A DNA stretch of 64,000 bases from Mycobacterium lacus (GTDB lineage: Bacteria; Actinomycetota; Actinomycetes; Mycobacteriales; Mycobacteriaceae). The notes under the pieces were generated by a model that was not told the origin of the DNA, did no database searches, and saw only the letters and a program-made list of their open reading frames with translations. The position numbers and the translations under genes were made by a program. The DNA lies in NCBI RefSeq assembly GCF_010731535.1, contig NZ_AP022581.1, positions 2,737,952-2,801,951 of the forward strand, read 5' to 3'. How positions within the stretch are numbered: position 1 is the first letter of the stretch; each line of letters opens with the position of its first letter. This document shows, piece after piece, positions 41,685-58,926 of this stretch.

Positions 41685-42452
41685 CTACAGTCTCGCGGAG
41701 AATCCGTCAACCCGCGTGGCGTGGACCTCCCAGAACGGGGCATGCACCCGGCCGTTGACCAGCCATGGCTCCATGACGCGGAACCGCTCCAGCACGCACT
41801 GCACCCGGTCGGCCAGGTCGGGATTCCGCGCAGCCATCAGCTCGAGCGTCTCGACGCTCAGGTTGACCTGGTAGGTCGTCGTCCCCAGGTAGCTGATCTC
41901 CCAGCCACCAAGCGGAAGCACCTGGCGAAAATCGTCCTCGGACAATGACCGCGGCATGCTGAACCCGTTGACGTTGTGCGCGCCGAACTCGTACATGTAC
42001 AGCCGCGCTCCCGGCCTGGTGGCCCGATGCAGCGCCCGCACATAAGACTTCTGCAGTTCGGGAGCGGTGCTGAAGGTGTGGTAGAAGGCGCAGTCGACGA
42101 CCGTGTCGAACCGGTCGTCCAGCCCGTCCAGCCGGGTCGCGTCGGCCACCTGGAAGTTCACCGAAACCCCGGCCTTTTGCGCGTTCGCCAGGGCGCGATC
42201 GATAGCGGCCGCCGACCCGTCGATGCCGGTGGCCGAGTAGCCCTTGGCGGCGTAGTAGATCGCGTGGTGACCAGGGCCGGTGCCAGGGTCGAGCACTTCG
42301 CCCTTGATCGCGCCGACGGCAACTAGTTGCTGAACCACCGGCTGCGGGCCGCCGATATCCCACGGCGTGGCAGCCGGCAGGCCGTGCACGAACCGGTCAT
42401 CGCGATACATGTCCTCGAAGCGGGTGGGATCGCTCGGGTCGGATTGAGTCAT
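41685..42452 (-). CDS. Class I SAM-dependent methyltransferase (Rv2675c type)
   Basis: A 255-aa protein starting MTQSDPSDPTRFEDMYRDD (complement of 42450-42452). SAM motif: EVLDPGTGPGHHAIYYA, then ATGIDGSAAAIDRA. The DPGTGPG form departs slightly from the usual DxGxGxG but keeps the glycines. The substrate is unknown. The start codon is the last base group of a MIRU-like element (42449-42528) separating it from chdC; both are in the same direction. Confidence 0.9.
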   Translation of the reverse strand: MTQSDPSDPTRFEDMYRDDRFVHGLPAATPWDIGGPQPVVQQLVAVGAIKGEVLDPGTGPGHHAIYYAAKGYSATGIDGSAAAIDRALANAQKAGVSVNFQVADATRLDGLDDRFDTVVDCAFYHTFSTAPELQKSYVRALHRATRPGARLYMYEFGAHNVNGFSMPRSLSEDDFRQVLPLGGWEISYLGTTTYQVNLSVETLELMAARNPDLADRVQCVLERFRVMEPWLVNGRVHAPFWEVHATRVDGFSARL

Positions 42453-42525
42453 GAGCGCCGCTTTCCCGCGCAAGCGGGCGGGACCCCCACCCCTTCGCTC
42501 GGGCTCCGCATCGTCGCCGGCGCGG

Positions 42526-42528
<3 letters not shown>
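42449..42528 (-). repeat. MIRU-like element between chdC and methyltransferase gene
   Basis: Read on the minus strand it begins ATGACCGCGCCGGCGACGAT and ends GCGCTCATGACT, so it is bracketed by ATGAC. The first ATGA contains the chdC stop, the last the start of the next gene. Its head matches that of the 53-bp units at 55003. An inner part with CCCGCGCAAGCGGGCGGG is a palindromic insertion. Confidence 0.7.
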
Positions 42529-44593
<2,065 letters not shown>

Positions 44594-44597
<4 letters not shown>

Positions 44598-45673
44598 AGC
44601 GAGTGGACCAGCGATACCAGCTCGGCCAGCACGCCCGGGTCGGTCTCCGGCAGCACCCCGTGGCCGAGGTTGAATACGTGCCCGGCGGCCCCGGCGTCGA
44701 CCGCGCGCCGCCCGTCGTCGACGACGGCCCGCGCGGCGCGCTCCACCACCGGCCACCCGGCCAGCAACACCACCGGATCGAGGTTGCCCTGCAGCGCGGT
44801 GCCCGGTTGCACCCTGGCGGCGGCATCGGTCAGTGTCGTACGCCAATCCACGCCGACGACTGTCGCACCGGCCTCTGACATCGCGCCCAGCAGTTCGGCG
44901 GTGCCGACCCCGAAATGCGTCATCGGCACGCCGCGCTCGGCCAGCGTGCCGAACACCCGCGCGCTGTGCGGCAGCACGTGCTGACGGTAATCGGCCAACG
45001 ACAACGCCCCCGCCCACGAGTCGAACACCTGGACGGCGTCCACCCCGGCGTCGATTTGGCCCCACAGGACCGCGATGGTGAGGTCGGTCAGCCGTTCCAT
45101 CAGCGCGTGCCAGCTCGCCGGCTCGGCCAGCATCATTGCTTTGGTACGGGCGTGGTGGCGGCTCGGTCCGCCCTCGACCAGGTAGGACGCCAGCGTGAAC
45201 GGGGCGCCCGCGAAACCGATCAGCGGAACTTCGCCCAGCGCGTCGACCAACAGCGAAACCGCCTCTAACACCGGCTGAATCGCTTGTGGATCAAGGGGTT
45301 TCATGGCCTCGATATCGGCAGCGGTGCGCACCGGGTCCGCGATCACGGGTCCCACGTCAGCGACGATGTCCACATCGATGCCGGCGGCACGCAGCGGCAC
45401 GACGATATCGGAGAACAGGATCGCCGCGTCGACGTCGTAGCGGCGGATCGGTTGCAGGGTGACCTCGCAGGCCAGGTCCGGCTCGAAGCAGGCCGCCAGC
45501 ATGCTGTGCCGTTCGCGCAGGGCCCGATATTCGGGCAGCGAGCGGCCGGCCTGTCGCATGAACCACACCGGAACCCGGTTGGGTTTGCGGCCGGCGACGG
45601 CGGCCAGATAGGGCGACTTCACAAGGTCGCGACGGGTACGCGCAGGAGTATTCACTGGCTTCAATGCTGCCAT
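44594..45673 (-). CDS. hemE: Uroporphyrinogen decarboxylase HemE
   Basis: A 359-aa enzyme with the UroD signatures [17 protein letters not shown] near residue 38 and [17 protein letters not shown] near 145. I start it at [17 protein letters not shown] (complement of 45671-45673). It decarboxylates uroporphyrinogen III to coproporphyrinogen III, the entry to the chdC/hemY branch. It is the first gene of hemE-hemY-chdC. Its start coincides with an ATG on the opposite strand that could start echA15. Confidence 0.94.
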
Positions 45674-45707
45674 GAGCGCAGATCGGCACTTGCGTAACAT
45701 CAACCCG

Positions 45708-46514
45708 GTGCCGGTCACCTACGACGAGTTCCCCAGCCTCCGCTTCGAACCCAGGGAAAATGGCGTGCTCGAGCTGGTCCTCGATGCGCCCGGGCTGAAC
45801 TCGGTCGGGCCGCAAATGCACCGCGACCTTGCCGACATCTGGCCGGTGATCGATCGCGACCCGGACGTAAGGGTCGTGCTGGTCCGCGGGGAAGGTAAGG
45901 CGTTTTCCTCCGGCGGCAGCTTCGACCTGATCGACGAGACGATCGGCGACTACGAGGGCCGGATCCGGATCATGCGCGAGGCGCGCGACCTGGTGCTCAA
46001 CCTGGTCAACTTCGACAAGCCGGTGATATCGGCGATTCGGGGCCCCGCCGTCGGCGCGGGTCTGGTGGTGGCGCTGCTCGCCGACATCTCCGTCGCCAGC
46101 CGGACCGCGAAGATCATCGACGGGCACACTAAACTCGGCGTCGCCGCTGGGGATCACGCCGCGATCTGCTGGCCGCTACTGGTCGGCATGGCCAAGGCCA
46201 AGTACTACCTGCTCACCTGCGAGACGCTCTCCGGTGAGGAGGCCGAGCGCATCGGCCTGGTGTCGACCTGTGTCGACGACAACGAGGTACTCCCGACCGC
46301 GGCCCGGCTCGCCGAGAATTTGGCGCACGGCGCGCAAAACGCGATTCGCTGGACCAAGCGCAGCCTGAATCACTGGTACCGGATGTTCGGGCCCACCTTC
46401 GAAACGTCGCTCGGCCTGGAATTCGTCGGTTTCAGCGGTCCCGACGTCCGCGAAGGGCTGTCCGCACACCGCGAGAAGCGCCCCGCGCGATTTGCCGCCG
46501 GCCCTAACGGCTGA
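45708..46514 (+). CDS. echA15: Enoyl-CoA hydratase/isomerase EchA15
   Basis: A crotonase-fold protein of 268 aa if started at GTG 45708 ([13 protein letters not shown]), or 280 aa from ATG 45672. Motifs: [16 protein letters not shown] (first oxyanion block) and [17 protein letters not shown] (second). Compared with true hydratases, the catalytic Glu positions are not clearly kept, so the reaction is uncertain. It is divergent from hemE and followed by a MIRU-like element and the DUF3000 gene. Confidence 0.9.
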
Positions 46515-46585
46515 GCCCTCACGGCTGAGCGCGATTCGGCGCGCCTGTTCACACCTGTCGGACGATGGGTCTACCGTCGAATTCT

Positions 46586-46668
46586 GTGACCCGCGCCAGC
46601 GACGATACGGAGCGCAGCGACGGAGGGGTACCTCACGCTTGGGGGGGAGAGGAGCGGCGCAGATGACC
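46586..46668 (+). repeat. MIRU-like element carrying the RBS and start of the DUF3000 gene
   Basis: It reads GTGACCCGCGCCAGCGACGA at its start and GAGGAGCGGCGCAGATGACC at its end. This is the same head and tail as the reverse complement of the 53-bp MIRU units at 55003, with about 27 extra bases in the middle (46625-46652, G-rich). It is bracketed by GTGACC and ATGACC, as if inserted at the original start codon. Confidence 0.72.
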
Positions 46669-47244
46669 TCAGCCGAACCGGCCCCCTTCCGCGAGGCGGT
46701 AGCAGCGATGAATGCCGTCAACGTGCGGCCGGAGATCGAGCTTGGGCCCATCCGCCCACCGCAGCGGCTGGCGCCGTACAGTTACGCGCTGGGAGCCGAG
46801 GTCAAACATCCCGACCTCGACGTCGTCCCGGAACGATCCGAGGGAGACGCATTCGGGCGGCTGATCCTCTTGTACGACCCGGAGGGCTCCGACGCTTGGG
46901 ACGGCACGATCCGCCTGGTCGCCTACATCCAGGCCGACCTGGACTCGCACGAGGCCATCGACCCGCTGCTGCCCGACGTGGCGTGGAGTTGGCTGGTCGA
47001 GGCGCTCGAGTCGCACACCGAGCACATGACCGCCCTTGGCGGCACCGTCACCGCCACCACATCGGTGCGCTACGGCGACATCTCCGGACCGCCGCGCGCC
47101 CACCAGCTGGAGCTGCGGGCGTCGTGGACGGCGACCACCCCCGAACTGGGCAGCCACGTCGAGGCGTTCTGCGACGTTCTCGAGCACGCCGCGGGCCTGC
47201 CGCCGGCCGGGGTCACCGACCTGAGCTCCCGGTCACGCGCCTGA
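46663..47244 (+). CDS. DUF3000-family protein (Rv2680 type)
   Basis: A 193-aa conserved actinobacterial protein starting MTSAEPAPFREAVAAMNAVN. An open segment upstream (from 46585) would add 26 residues encoded by the repeat element. The GAGGAG supplied by that element, nine bases before the ATG, supports 46663. Conserved segments: RPPQRLAPYSYALGAEV and LILLYDPEGSDAWDGTIRLV. Function is unknown; it is linked to the RNase D-like gene by near overlap (TGA then ATG one base later). Confidence 0.9.
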   Translation: MTSAEPAPFREAVAAMNAVNVRPEIELGPIRPPQRLAPYSYALGAEVKHPDLDVVPERSEGDAFGRLILLYDPEGSDAWDGTIRLVAYIQADLDSHEAIDPLLPDVAWSWLVEALESHTEHMTALGGTVTATTSVRYGDISGPPRAHQLELRASWTATTPELGSHVEAFCDVLEHAAGLPPAGVTDLSSRSRA

Positions 47245-47245
47245 C

Positions 47246-48547
47246 ATGTGCCCCGAGCTGTCTCCGCGGGGGACCGATCTGCCGGGCAGCACTGAACCCG
47301 ACCCCACCCCGCTGATGCACCCCGCTGATGGGATACCGGAGCTCTCCGTGACCGTCAGCCAGATCGAAGCGGCCGCAGCGCTCCTGGACCACGGCACGGG
47401 ACCCTTTGCCGTGGACGCCGAGCGGGCATCGGGCTTCCGATACTCCAACCGTGCCTACCTGATCCAGATACGGCGGGCCGGCGCGGGCACCGTGCTCATC
47501 GACCCGGTCAGCCACGGCGGTGATCCGCTGACCGTGCTGCGGCCCGTCGCCGAGGTGCTCGGCCAGGGCGAGTGGATCGTGCACTCCGCCGATCAAGACC
47601 TGCCGTGTCTGGCCGAGGTCGGCATGCGACCGTCGGCGCTGTACGACACCGAGCTGGCCGGACGCCTGGCCGGATTCGACCGGGTGAACCTGGCGACCAT
47701 GGTCCAGCGGCTCCTGGGCCTGGGGTTGGCGAAGGGGCATGGCGCGGCCGACTGGTCCCGGCGACCGCTGCCGCCGGCGTGGCTCAACTACGCGGCCCTG
47801 GACGTGGAGCTGCTCATCGAACTGCGTGCGGCAATTTCAGCGGTGTTGGCCGAGCAAGGCAAAACCAGATGGGCCACGGAGGAATTCGAATATCTGCGGA
47901 CCTTAGGCGAACGTGGGAGCCCGCCCGCCCGACGCGATCGCTGGCGCCGGACGTCGGGCCTGCACAGGGTGCGGGATCGGCGAGGCCTGGCGGCGGTTCG
48001 CGAGTTGTGGCTGGCGCGCGACCGCATCGCCCAGCGTCGCGATATCGCGCCCCGCCGGATCCTGCCGGATTCGGCCATCATCGAGGCCGCGATCGCCGAC
48101 CCGAAGACGATCGACGATCTGGCGGCGTTGCCAGTGTTCGGTGGACGCAATCAGCGTCGCAGCGCCGCGCTGTGGTTGGCGGCGCTGGAAGCGGCCCGGG
48201 AAAGCCGAGATCTGCCCGAGGAAGTCGAGCAGACGAACGGGCCGCCGCCGCCGGCGCGGTGGGGCAGGCGAAAACCGGAGGCCGCCGCACGCCTGGATGC
48301 GGCCCGCACGGCGCTCGCGCGGTTGTCGCAACGGGTGAGGGTGCCGATCGAGAACCTGGTGCCACCCGACCTGGTGCGACGGCTGTGCTGGGAGTGGGAG
48401 GGCGCCTCTGACCCCGTCACGGCTGTCGAGGAGTACTTGCGCGCCGGCCAGGCGCGGGCGTGGCAACGAGAACTCGTGGTGCCGATCCTGGCCGCGGCGG
48501 TGACACGGGCTGCCGACACCGGCGCCGAGACCGACGAGAACTCCTAG
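47246..48547 (+). CDS. RNase D-like 3'-5' exonuclease with HRDC domain (Rv2681 type)
   Basis: A 433-aa protein. Residues about 35-205 are a DEDDy exonuclease: exo [12 protein letters not shown] (D, E), exo [12 protein letters not shown] (D), exo III near [14 protein letters not shown] (Y, D). The HRDC domain is at about 225-310 ([19 protein letters not shown]). It would trim tRNA or other stable RNA 3' ends. It converges with dxs with a 4-bp overlap. Confidence 0.92.
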
Positions 48548-53802: not shown

Positions 53803-55008
53803 TCAACGGGCCAGCAGCGCGACGCACTCGGTGTGATGGGTCAACGGGAAGGCATCGAAGACCCTGATCTTCTCGACGGCGTAACCGCGGCCGACGTAGA
53901 GTCCGATATCGCGAGCGAAAGACGCTGCCTCACAACCGATATGCACCACCCGTGGTACCCCGACCGCGGCGAGTAGGTCGATGACGTCGCGCCCGGCCCC
54001 GGATCGCGGCGGATCCAGCACCGCGACATGAGCTCTCGAGGCTTCGGCTTGTTGCGCCAACAGCGCGCGCCGCACCGAATCGGTGACGACGTCCACTTGC
54101 GGCATGTCGATGAGCGCGGCACGCGCGGCCCCCGATGACCCGCGCGAGGTGTCGACCGTCAGCACGCGCCCCGACTCCCCTACCGCCTCACCGAGCACCG
54201 CGGCGAAAACCCCCGCGCCGCCGTAGAGGTCCCAGGCGGTCATGCCGGCGGCCGGTTGTGCCCAGTCGGCGATCAGTCTGCTGTAGACCTCCGCCGCTTC
54301 GCGGTGTGCCTGCCAGAAGGCGGTCACCGGGACCCGCCAGCTGCGCCCACCCACCCGTTGCGCCGCCTGGTAGTTTCCCTCCACCACCGTGGTCGCGGTG
54401 CGCCGGCCCTGCCTCAGGCTGCGCACCACATGGCGCCGCCCGTCGTCGTCGACGGCCACGTGCAGCTTCGCGCCCGGCGGCCAATCGGACGCTGCGAGTC
54501 CATCCAACATGCCGGCGGGCAACTGCCCGCAACGCAGGTCGGTCACCAGCTCGTCGCTGTGGTAGCGGTGGAAACCCGGGCGACCGTCTGTCCCGACCTC
54601 GAGCCGGACCCGGGTGCGCCAGCCCGTGGGGCCGCCATCCGAAAGCGGTTCAGCCTCACCGGACCAGTGGTGTCCGCCCAGCCGCGCCAGCTGATTGGCC
54701 ACAACTTGAGCTTTGAGCGCGCGGGCCGGCTCGGGGGCCGCGAACGCCAGGTCGCAACACCCTGCGCCGTCTACCCCGGCGATCGGGCACAGCGACGCGA
54801 TCCGGTCGGCCGACGCGTCGACAATCTCGAAGGCCTCTGCGTGCCAATACGAACCACAATCGGCGGTGACCCGCACCCGAACCCGTTCGCCGGGCAACGC
54901 ATAGCGGACGAAGATCACCCGGCCCTCGTCGTGCGCTACGCAGCTGCCGCCGTTCGCGGGGGCGCCGGTGACCACCGTCAGCTCCCGGCCCGCGGATTCT
55001 CTGGTCAA
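53803..55008 (-). CDS. TrmA/RumA-family RNA (uracil-5-)-methyltransferase (Rv2689c type)
   Basis: A 401-aa protein. N-terminal TRAM domain (PANGGSCVAHDEGRVIFVRY, then GERVRVRV), a Cys group (CPIAGVDGAGCCD) resembling the [4Fe-4S] site of this family, SAM motif DLYGGAGVFA, DPPRSGAGRDV, and the catalytic-Cys region HIGCEAASFARD. It starts at a TTG (complement of 55006-55008) that lies in the first MIRU unit and has AGGAG eight bases upstream. The modified RNA (rRNA or tRNA) is unknown. In Mtb an ABC efflux set lies between arsB1 and this gene; it is absent here. Confidence 0.9.
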   Translation of the reverse strand: MTRESAGRELTVVTGAPANGGSCVAHDEGRVIFVRYALPGERVRVRVTADCGSYWHAEAFEIVDASADRIASLCPIAGVDGAGCCDLAFAAPEPARALKAQVVANQLARLGGHHWSGEAEPLSDGGPTGWRTRVRLEVGTDGRPGFHRYHSDELVTDLRCGQLPAGMLDGLAASDWPPGAKLHVAVDDDGRRHVVRSLRQGRRTATTVVEGNYQAAQRVGGRSWRVPVTAFWQAHREAAEVYSRLIADWAQPAAGMTAWDLYGGAGVFAAVLGEAVGESGRVLTVDTSRGSSGAARAALIDMPQVDVVTDSVRRALLAQQAEASRAHVAVLDPPRSGAGRDVIDLLAAVGVPRVVHIGCEAASFARDIGLYVGRGYAVEKIRVFDAFPLTHHTECVALLAR

Positions 55009-55223
55009 TCGCGCCGCTCCTCTTCATCGCTTCGCTCTGCATCGTCGTCGGCGCGGGTCAATCGCGCCGCTCCTCTTCATCGCTTCGCTCTGCATCGTCG
55101 TCGGCGCGGGTCAATCGCGCCGCTCCTCTTCATCGCTTCGCTCTGCATCGTCGTCGGCGCGGGTCAATCGCGCCGCTCCTCTTCATCGCTTCGCTCTGCA
55201 TCGTCGTCGGCGCGGGTCAATCG
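55003..55223 (-). repeat. MIRU tandem array: four 53-bp units plus partial fifth
   Basis: Units start at 55003, 55056, 55109 and 55162, with a 9-bp partial at 55215. All four are identical as far as I can compare. Each starts GGTCAATCGCGCCGCTCC on the plus strand; on the gene strand each ends AGGAGCGGCGCGATTGACC. The TCAA at the left end of each unit reads TTGA on the gene strand, a combined stop/start. The upstream permease's TGA lies in the partial unit, and the methyltransferase's TTG lies in the first. Confidence 0.95.
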
Positions 55224-58083: not shown

Positions 58084-58746
58084 ATGAAGGTAGCTGTCGC
58101 CGGAGCGGGCGCGGTCGGCCGCTCGGTCACCCGCGAACTCGTCGAAAACGGACACGAAATCACCCTGATCGAACGCAACCCCGAGCACCTTGAAGCCGAC
58201 GCCATACCGACCGCACATTGGCGACTGGGCGATGCCTGCGAGCTGAGCCTGCTGGAGTCCATCCACCTCGAGGACTTTGACGTCGTGGTCGCCGCCACCG
58301 GCGACGACAAGGTCAACGTGGTGCTCAGCCTGCTGGCCAAGACCGAATTCGCGGTCCCGCGAGTGGTAGCCCGGGTCAACGATCCCCGCAACGAGTGGCT
58401 GTTCACCGACGCCTGGGGGGTCGACGTGGCCGTATCCACGCCGCGCATGCTGGCGTCCCTGATCGAGGAGGCCGTCGCCGTCGGCGACCTGGTGCGACTG
58501 ATCGAATTCCGCCGGGGTCAGGCCAACTTGGTCGAAATCACCCTGCCCGACGACACGCCGTGGGGCGGCAAGCCGGTGCGCAAACTGCAGCTGCCCCGGG
58601 ATGCCGCGCTGGTGACGATCCTGCGTGGGCCGCGAGTCATCGTGCCGGAGGCCGATGAGCCGCTGGAAGGTGGCGACGAGTTGCTCTTCGTCGCGGTCAC
58701 CGAGGTCGAGGAGGAGCTGCGTCAGCTGCTGTTGCCGGCAACCTAG
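58084..58746 (+). CDS. ceoC: TrkA-type NAD-binding K+ transport regulator CeoC
   Basis: A 220-aa RCK partner of CeoB (Rv2692). Rossmann motif MKVAVAGAGAVGRSVTREL, TrkA-C region at about 140-215. The ATG at 58084 has AAGGAG upstream (58067-58072) and is preferred to GTG 58075. Its TAG stop is the first triplet of the 57-bp repeat array. Confidence 0.93.
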   Translation: MKVAVAGAGAVGRSVTRELVENGHEITLIERNPEHLEADAIPTAHWRLGDACELSLLESIHLEDFDVVVAATGDDKVNVVLSLLAKTEFAVPRVVARVNDPRNEWLFTDAWGVDVAVSTPRMLASLIEEAVAVGDLVRLIEFRRGQANLVEITLPDDTPWGGKPVRKLQLPRDAALVTILRGPRVIVPEADEPLEGGDELLFVAVTEVEEELRQLLLPAT

Positions 58747-58914
58747 CCCGACGACGGCGAGCGCCGGAACGGCGCGAGCAAGGAATCGGGCAATCGGTCC
58801 TAGCCCGACGACGGCGAGCGCCGGAACGGCGCGAGCAAGGAATCGGGCAATCGGTCCCAGCCCGACGACGGCGAGCGCCGGAACGGCGCGAGCAAGGAAT
58901 CGGGCAATCGGTCC
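58744..58914. repeat. Three tandem 57-bp repeats between convergent genes
   Basis: Units begin at 58744, 58801 and 58858; the first two start TAGCCCGACGACGG, the third CAGCCCGACGACGG, and they are otherwise identical. Each contains a perfect hairpin GCGCC-GGAAC-GGCGC. The array fills the gap between ceoC and the convergent membrane-protein gene, so it may act as a bidirectional terminator and could vary in copy number. Confidence 0.93.
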
Positions 58915-58926
58915 CAGCCGCCAGAA

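Follow-up and report, generated by a model that had tools for sequence, protein, structure and literature searches.

A MIRU in the probably leaderless start of the DUF3000 gene of Mycobacterium lacus and the coupled small ORF that it is predicted to create

The start codon of the DUF3000 gene of M. lacus, located in a 64,000 nt stretch of contig NZ_AP022581.1 (hereafter the window, whose numbering is used unless genome positions are given), is the insertion site of a mycobacterial interspersed repetitive unit (MIRU) of the long class. We consider it likely that this insertion entered a leaderless start and generated a leaderless small ORF followed by a DUF3000 gene that is led by a Shine–Dalgarno sequence and coupled to that ORF. 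The insertion site, the corresponding empty sites of relatives, the gain of a Shine–Dalgarno sequence, the overlap of stop and start codons and the conserved −10 box were all directly observed. The addition of a ribosome-binding site and the remaking of a start codon are ordinary MIRU behaviour and already known; what is new, to a modest degree, is the apparent repeated targeting of a leaderless start codon, with a natural leaderless bicistron as the probable outcome.

The element and its relatives in the M. lacus genome

The DUF3000 gene (46663..47244, + strand; 193 aa; Pfam PF11452, E=5.6e-73) presently starts at ATG46663 and lies downstream of an echA-type enoyl-CoA hydratase gene on the same strand (45672..46514; Pfam PF00378, ECH_1). 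The echA stop is separated by 71 nt from GTG46586 (46586..46588), the codon that alignment with empty sites identifies as the original DUF3000 start and that now opens the small ORF, and there is no operon-junction overlap at this site. A TANNNT-type −10 box, TACCGT (46572..46577, + strand), conserved in relatives as TANCGT, precedes GTG46586 with a spacer of 8 nt, and this GTG is probably the 5′ end of the transcript. The MIRU is in the orientation of the gene, flanked by GTGA (46586-46589) and ATGA (46663-46666); the bracketing by GTGACC and ATGACC described in the first-pass annotation is base-exact at 46586-46591 and 46663-46668. Within these brackets, TGACC at 46587..46591 and at 46664..46668 (both + strand) would be the left and right copies of a 5 bp target duplication, and the core of the element, of the long (77 bp) class, extends from CGCGCC to the A of the ATG (46592..46663, + strand). 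The core contains a G/C-rich block, placed at approximately 46622..46648 (+ strand) by comparison with four other sites (L002, L003, L034 and L086) and diverged here from its commoner form GGGGGCACCTCCCGCTTGCGGGGGAG, and a Shine–Dalgarno sequence, GAGGAG (46649..46654, + strand), 8 nt before ATG46663. The predicted small ORF of 26 codons (VTRASDDTERSDGGVPHAWGGEERRR; 46586..46666, + strand) ends at TGA46664-46666, which overlaps ATG46663 by 4 nt (ATGA). Short perfect or near-perfect tandem duplications occur close to either end of the DUF3000 gene, at 47305-47330 (13 bp, CACCCCGCTGATG) and at 46501-46530 (14 bp, around the echA stop).

The head of the element differs by 3 mismatches in 20 nt from that of the four 53 bp units located at 55 kb in the window, a likeness for which shuffled sequences gave an expectation of 0, and its tail, GAGGAGCGGCGC followed by TGA, has 18 occurrences genome-wide (reversed-pattern control, 0). 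The kinship that had been noted previously is confirmed. The distance from G46586 to A46663 is 77 nt as against 53 nt per unit at 55 kb, i.e. 24 extra nucleotides and not the approximately 27 given at first. Whole-genome searches, with reading of the copies found, yielded further long copies of 79–86% identity and showed that the repeat is dispersed and built as DTGANN-CGCGCCGGCGACGATGCAG-(optional G/C-rich block)-AGCGATGAGGAGGAGCGGCGCNN-DTGA; almost every copy ends where a long downstream frame begins. MIRU classes of 77 bp and 53 bp have been described (PMC4213456). The element at DUF3000 is related to the dispersed copies, has a unit of 77 bp (53 bp in the 55 kb array), carries DTGA on both sides in the orientation of the gene and encloses a small ORF that overlaps the start by 4 nt. 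It and the dispersed copies are MIRUs, and what had been called a MIRU-like element is a MIRU of the long class, for which the G/C-rich block, commonly GGGGGCACCTCCCGCTTGCGGGGGA, is ordinary.

The array used for this comparison (55003..55223, − strand) is likewise situated at a DTGA and leads into a frame of 401 codons that starts with TTG. Its units are identical and each opens an 18-codon frame running from TTG to the next TTGA, giving a chain of overlapping small ORFs, the last of them at the TTG start of the 401-codon frame; this array is probably the MIRU27 region. Another long-class MIRU (ATGACCGCGCCGGCGACGATGCGG...AAAGCGGCGCTCATGACT) occupies 42452-42530 on the − strand, where a downstream frame begins, and a tandem array at 58745-58919 (57 bp unit, 3.1 copies, 99% identity) did not look MIRU-like by eye.

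Among the MIRU units of the genome for which both ends were found, 23/27 have the coupled geometry, two are in frame and two are neither. The coupled units have nine distinct lengths (50, 53, 65, 74, 77, 101, 104, 113 and 146), all of them 2 mod 3. A mobile translation start of this kind was at first regarded as unusual; it is the prevailing arrangement in this genome and has been published for MIRUs (PMC12548453). Many other MIRU sites in the genome are at operon junctions. At four sites, namely DUF3000 and genome positions 3109143, 3423015 and 3370227, the left DTG is preceded at 6–8 nt by a TANNNT motif and is not the end of any long upstream ORF, and these look like leaderless-type sites. 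Two copies, L163 (genome 1552154) and L164 (genome 1588966), are located at ATGC and TGG and not at DTGA, which suggests that start codons are targeted without a strict requirement for DTGA. No transposase-bearing long element with MIRU ends was seen among the copies read.

Empty and filled sites in relatives

Orthologous sites were collected from 30 genomes of the genus and 80 named records, and removal of identical site sequences and of sites in which the promoter motif was not found left 25 empty and 52 filled sites. TANCGT starts 12–15 nt before the RTG in 25/25 empty sites (exactly 14 nt in 19/25), TANNNT being the mycobacterial −10 consensus (PMC3898074), and a Shine–Dalgarno sequence of GGAG, AGGA or GAGG type 4–14 nt before the start was present in 0/25. 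From this conserved spacing and the missing Shine–Dalgarno sequence, we consider that DUF3000 without a MIRU is probably a leaderless gene. In the filled sites the TANCGT box stands at an unchanged distance from the first RTG, and GGAG or AGGAG is found 6–12 nt before the second RTG in all 52. A pair is provided by M. celatum (empty, L117) and M. kyorinense DSM 45166 (filled, L118), which differ by a clean 53 bp insertion between near-identical flanks. Comparison of the junction with relatives that lack the element thus places the old RTG at GTG46586, upholding the suggestion that the original start had been displaced upstream. The further proposal that the element supplies both ribosome-binding site and start codon stands for the former, in the shape of GAGGAG, but not for the latter, as only the A can come from the element, the TG being part of the duplicated TGACC. 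The right-hand D is mostly A regardless of the base at the left-hand D, so the A of the ATG is probably indeed from the element.

The extent of the duplication was estimated from 26 sites in the M. lacus genome, using a flank table read by hand. After the TG, left and right flanks agreed in 26/26, 22/26 and 15/21 positions, with P = 0.0016, below 1e-4 and 4e-4, respectively, when the right flanks were permuted. MIRU insertion thus probably duplicates a target of roughly 5 bp, TGNNN.

When a tree was built from the 3′ flank of the DUF3000 site (81 rows), the filled or empty state changed nine times, and at least five of these changes are forced by starred branches; change counts of themselves do not distinguish gain from loss. 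A repeat that is ancestral at this position, with empty sites formed by deletion and no insertion into the start codon at all, would agree with the filled state of most slow growers, and precise loss between the TGACC direct repeats is conceivable. However, the Mycolicibacterium outgroup is empty with unchanged promoter spacing, the filled tips L118, L059 and L075/L079 fall inside empty clades on starred branches, and flank duplication at many loci indicates insertion, so we regard ancestral presence as improbable. Several gains at the DUF3000 site are favoured by the outgroup and the nesting. The present analysis adds the DUF3000 start as an apparently leaderless site that has been filled or emptied at least five times in mycobacteria.

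Translation across the element

Our current working model is that DUF3000 was a probably leaderless gene whose start codon would have been entered by a long-class MIRU, with some five bases (TGACC) duplicated. Both the promoter and the old GTG would have stayed in place, the transcript still beginning at or next to GTG46586, which would now start the 26-codon ORF whose TGA46664 overlaps the new ATG46663. DUF3000 would be started both by ribosomes terminating at this TGA and by ribosomes binding the GAGGAG of the MIRU, and the DUF3000 protein would be unchanged by the switch from leaderless to coupled initiation. The 5′ end of the transcript, the translation of the small ORF and the coupling are predictions made from the DNA sequence. 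The displaced GTG probably still functions, opening as it does a 26-codon ORF 8 nt after TACCGT, and the MIRU is probably read as codons in another frame before handing over to the new ATG. The first-pass annotation had opposed initiation at the upstream GTG with read-through to a start provided by the element; as a small ORF in another frame may hand over to ATG46663, that choice does not separate the two.

The outcome for the reading frame was counted from the conserved GTG, some rows having been scripted from a TTG or GTG two bases earlier, and the copies share ancestry, so that the following counts are not independent. In 24 of the 52 distinct filled sites the small ORF is coupled (RTGA), in 21 it is in frame with DUF3000, in three it meets TAA, in three (all Mycolicibacter) the first RTG is absent and in one (M. 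uberis) it runs out of frame. In-frame sites have units of 51, 54, 72 or 81 nt, or arrays ending in one. The MIRU is thus probably read as codons in many species, either as a coupled small ORF or as an extended N-terminus. The 54 bp units of seven sites (L080, L084, L092, L098, L100, L109 and L113) put the leaderless-type GTG in the DUF3000 frame; the species with such units include M. scrofulaceum, M. nebraskense, M. colombiense and relatives, for which an 18-residue N-terminal extension is predicted.

Several observations speak against the working model: the MIRU is open in all relevant frames partly through high G+C content, TTG46639, inside the element and in the DUF3000 frame, is another possible start, and in the 21 in-frame sites elsewhere a fused N-terminus is possible and not coupling. 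A start further upstream in the gene's own frame, at TTG46639 or TTG46492, would make part of the MIRU coding sequence of DUF3000. The frame is indeed open up to 46366 and includes both codons, and the first GTG is in frame in species with 51 or 54 bp units. Yet in M. lacus the 77 nt put GTG46586 out of frame, a well-placed Shine–Dalgarno sequence is missing before TTG46639, TTG46492 lies inside echA, and the protein aligned across species begins at the second RTG, the sole start that the empty sites possess, so we consider such initiation very improbable. Extension of the N-terminus through the MIRU from GTG46586 was rejected for M. lacus, this codon being in the wrong frame. An RNA element was likewise rejected, there being no Rfam match up to E=1, and the folded region (z 0.04), with the G/C-rich block, being no more stable than shuffles.

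A simpler explanation is that the MIRU is a plain 5′ UTR of a transcript made from the −10 box, the small ORF remaining untranslated and DUF3000 being started by the MIRU Shine–Dalgarno sequence only. There is a precedent, in that the 77 nt 5′ UTR of M. bovis parA consists wholly of a class I MIRU and the M. marinum orthologue is leaderless (PMC4128351). Moreover, the five scorable Mycolicibacter sites lack the first RTG or contain TAA and yet have kept AAGGAG. Outside Mycolicibacter, however, every filled site retains the first RTG, 45/47 have a reading frame that is either coupled or in frame, length changes in the M. lacus genome are mostly in threes, and leaderless RTG codons are efficiently translated in mycobacteria (PMC4633059). 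We therefore think the untranslated alternative unlikely and prefer the coupled small ORF. In Mycolicibacter (L119, L123, L125, L126 and L130), the element preceding DUF3000 measures some 90 nt and has diverged strongly; the first RTG is lost or TAA stops occur, and the ribosome-binding site is of GTTAAGGAG type, an appearance that would fit decay of the repeat to an ordinary 5′ UTR.

Comparison with known MIRUs and leaderless bicistrons

The DUF3000 site offers clean natural before-and-after pairs in closely related species, with the same promoter and the same protein, so that the effect of leaderless as against coupled Shine–Dalgarno-led initiation is measurable. It also gives a mechanistic reading to MIRU26, a locus used worldwide in the typing of tuberculosis. 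In M. tuberculosis MIRU26 lies between Rv2679 (echA15) and Rv2680 (PMC3294723), and the M. lacus element likewise has an ECH_1 gene upstream and DUF3000 downstream. The MIRU26 forward primer GCGGATAGGTCTACCGTCGAAATC (PMC3294723) covers GGTCTACCGTCGAA, the promoter stretch at 46568-46581 of the window, as matched by eye; a search with this primer of 397 genomes of the genus gave only one site, with 2 mismatches, and no M. tuberculosis. As judged from gene interval and primer, the DUF3000 site is the orthologous position of MIRU26. The M. tuberculosis locus has a 51 bp unit in several copies (PMC4338821) and M. lacus a single 77 bp unit; whether such a site yields an extended N-terminus or coupling would depend on its unit length (51/54 in frame, 53/77 coupled).

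According to a 2025 review citing Supply 1997, MIRUs insert at start codons and their ORF is coupled at −4 nt (PMC12548453). The MIRUs of M. lacus have in common with those of Supply et al. (1997), as known from PMC12548453 and PMC4213456, the lengths of class I (77 bp) and of the 53 bp class, the G/C-rich block, start-codon insertion, the ATGA overlap of the small ORF and AGGAG before the start. The classic site, in senX3-regX3, is an overlapping stop and start inside an operon, whereas the DUF3000 site is probably leaderless and lies 71 nt past the upstream stop, so that its left DTGA does not end the upstream gene. Classic sites typically lie at an operon junction, which does not hold for every MIRU, parA being an exception (PMC4128351), and the DUF3000 site does not belong to that sub-type. 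The 77 nt class I MIRU of M. bovis parA (Mb3239c) also stands between a transcript start, mapped for parA and predicted for DUF3000, and a gene whose counterpart in a relative, M. marinum MMAR_1344, is leaderless. The parA element was described as a 5′ UTR (PMC4128351) and ours is read as a coupled small ORF.

In M. tuberculosis, leaderless small ORFs coupled by RTGA have been reported in excess (23/220; PMC4633059), in a text that does not contain the word MIRU. The DUF3000 arrangement resembles these in having an RTG at the expected 5′ end, a short ORF and a TGA overlapping the next start, the RTGA overlap being ATGA at 46663-46666; its transcript probably begins at GTG46586, as judged only from the spacing and conservation of the −10 box. 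We would put at about even chances the wider proposal that MIRU insertion into leaderless starts is a recurrent natural route to leaderless bicistrons and explains part of this excess, the DUF3000 start having been hit independently several times by movement that leaves a TGNNN duplication. A synthetic counterpart exists in the leaderless bicistronic design of Corynebacterium glutamicum, in which a leaderless fore-cistron is followed by a Shine–Dalgarno sequence and a coupled gene (PMC10367133). That design is engineered and is compared with the DUF3000 site only for how it works; its full strength needs both translation of the fore-cistron and the Shine–Dalgarno sequence (PMC10367133).
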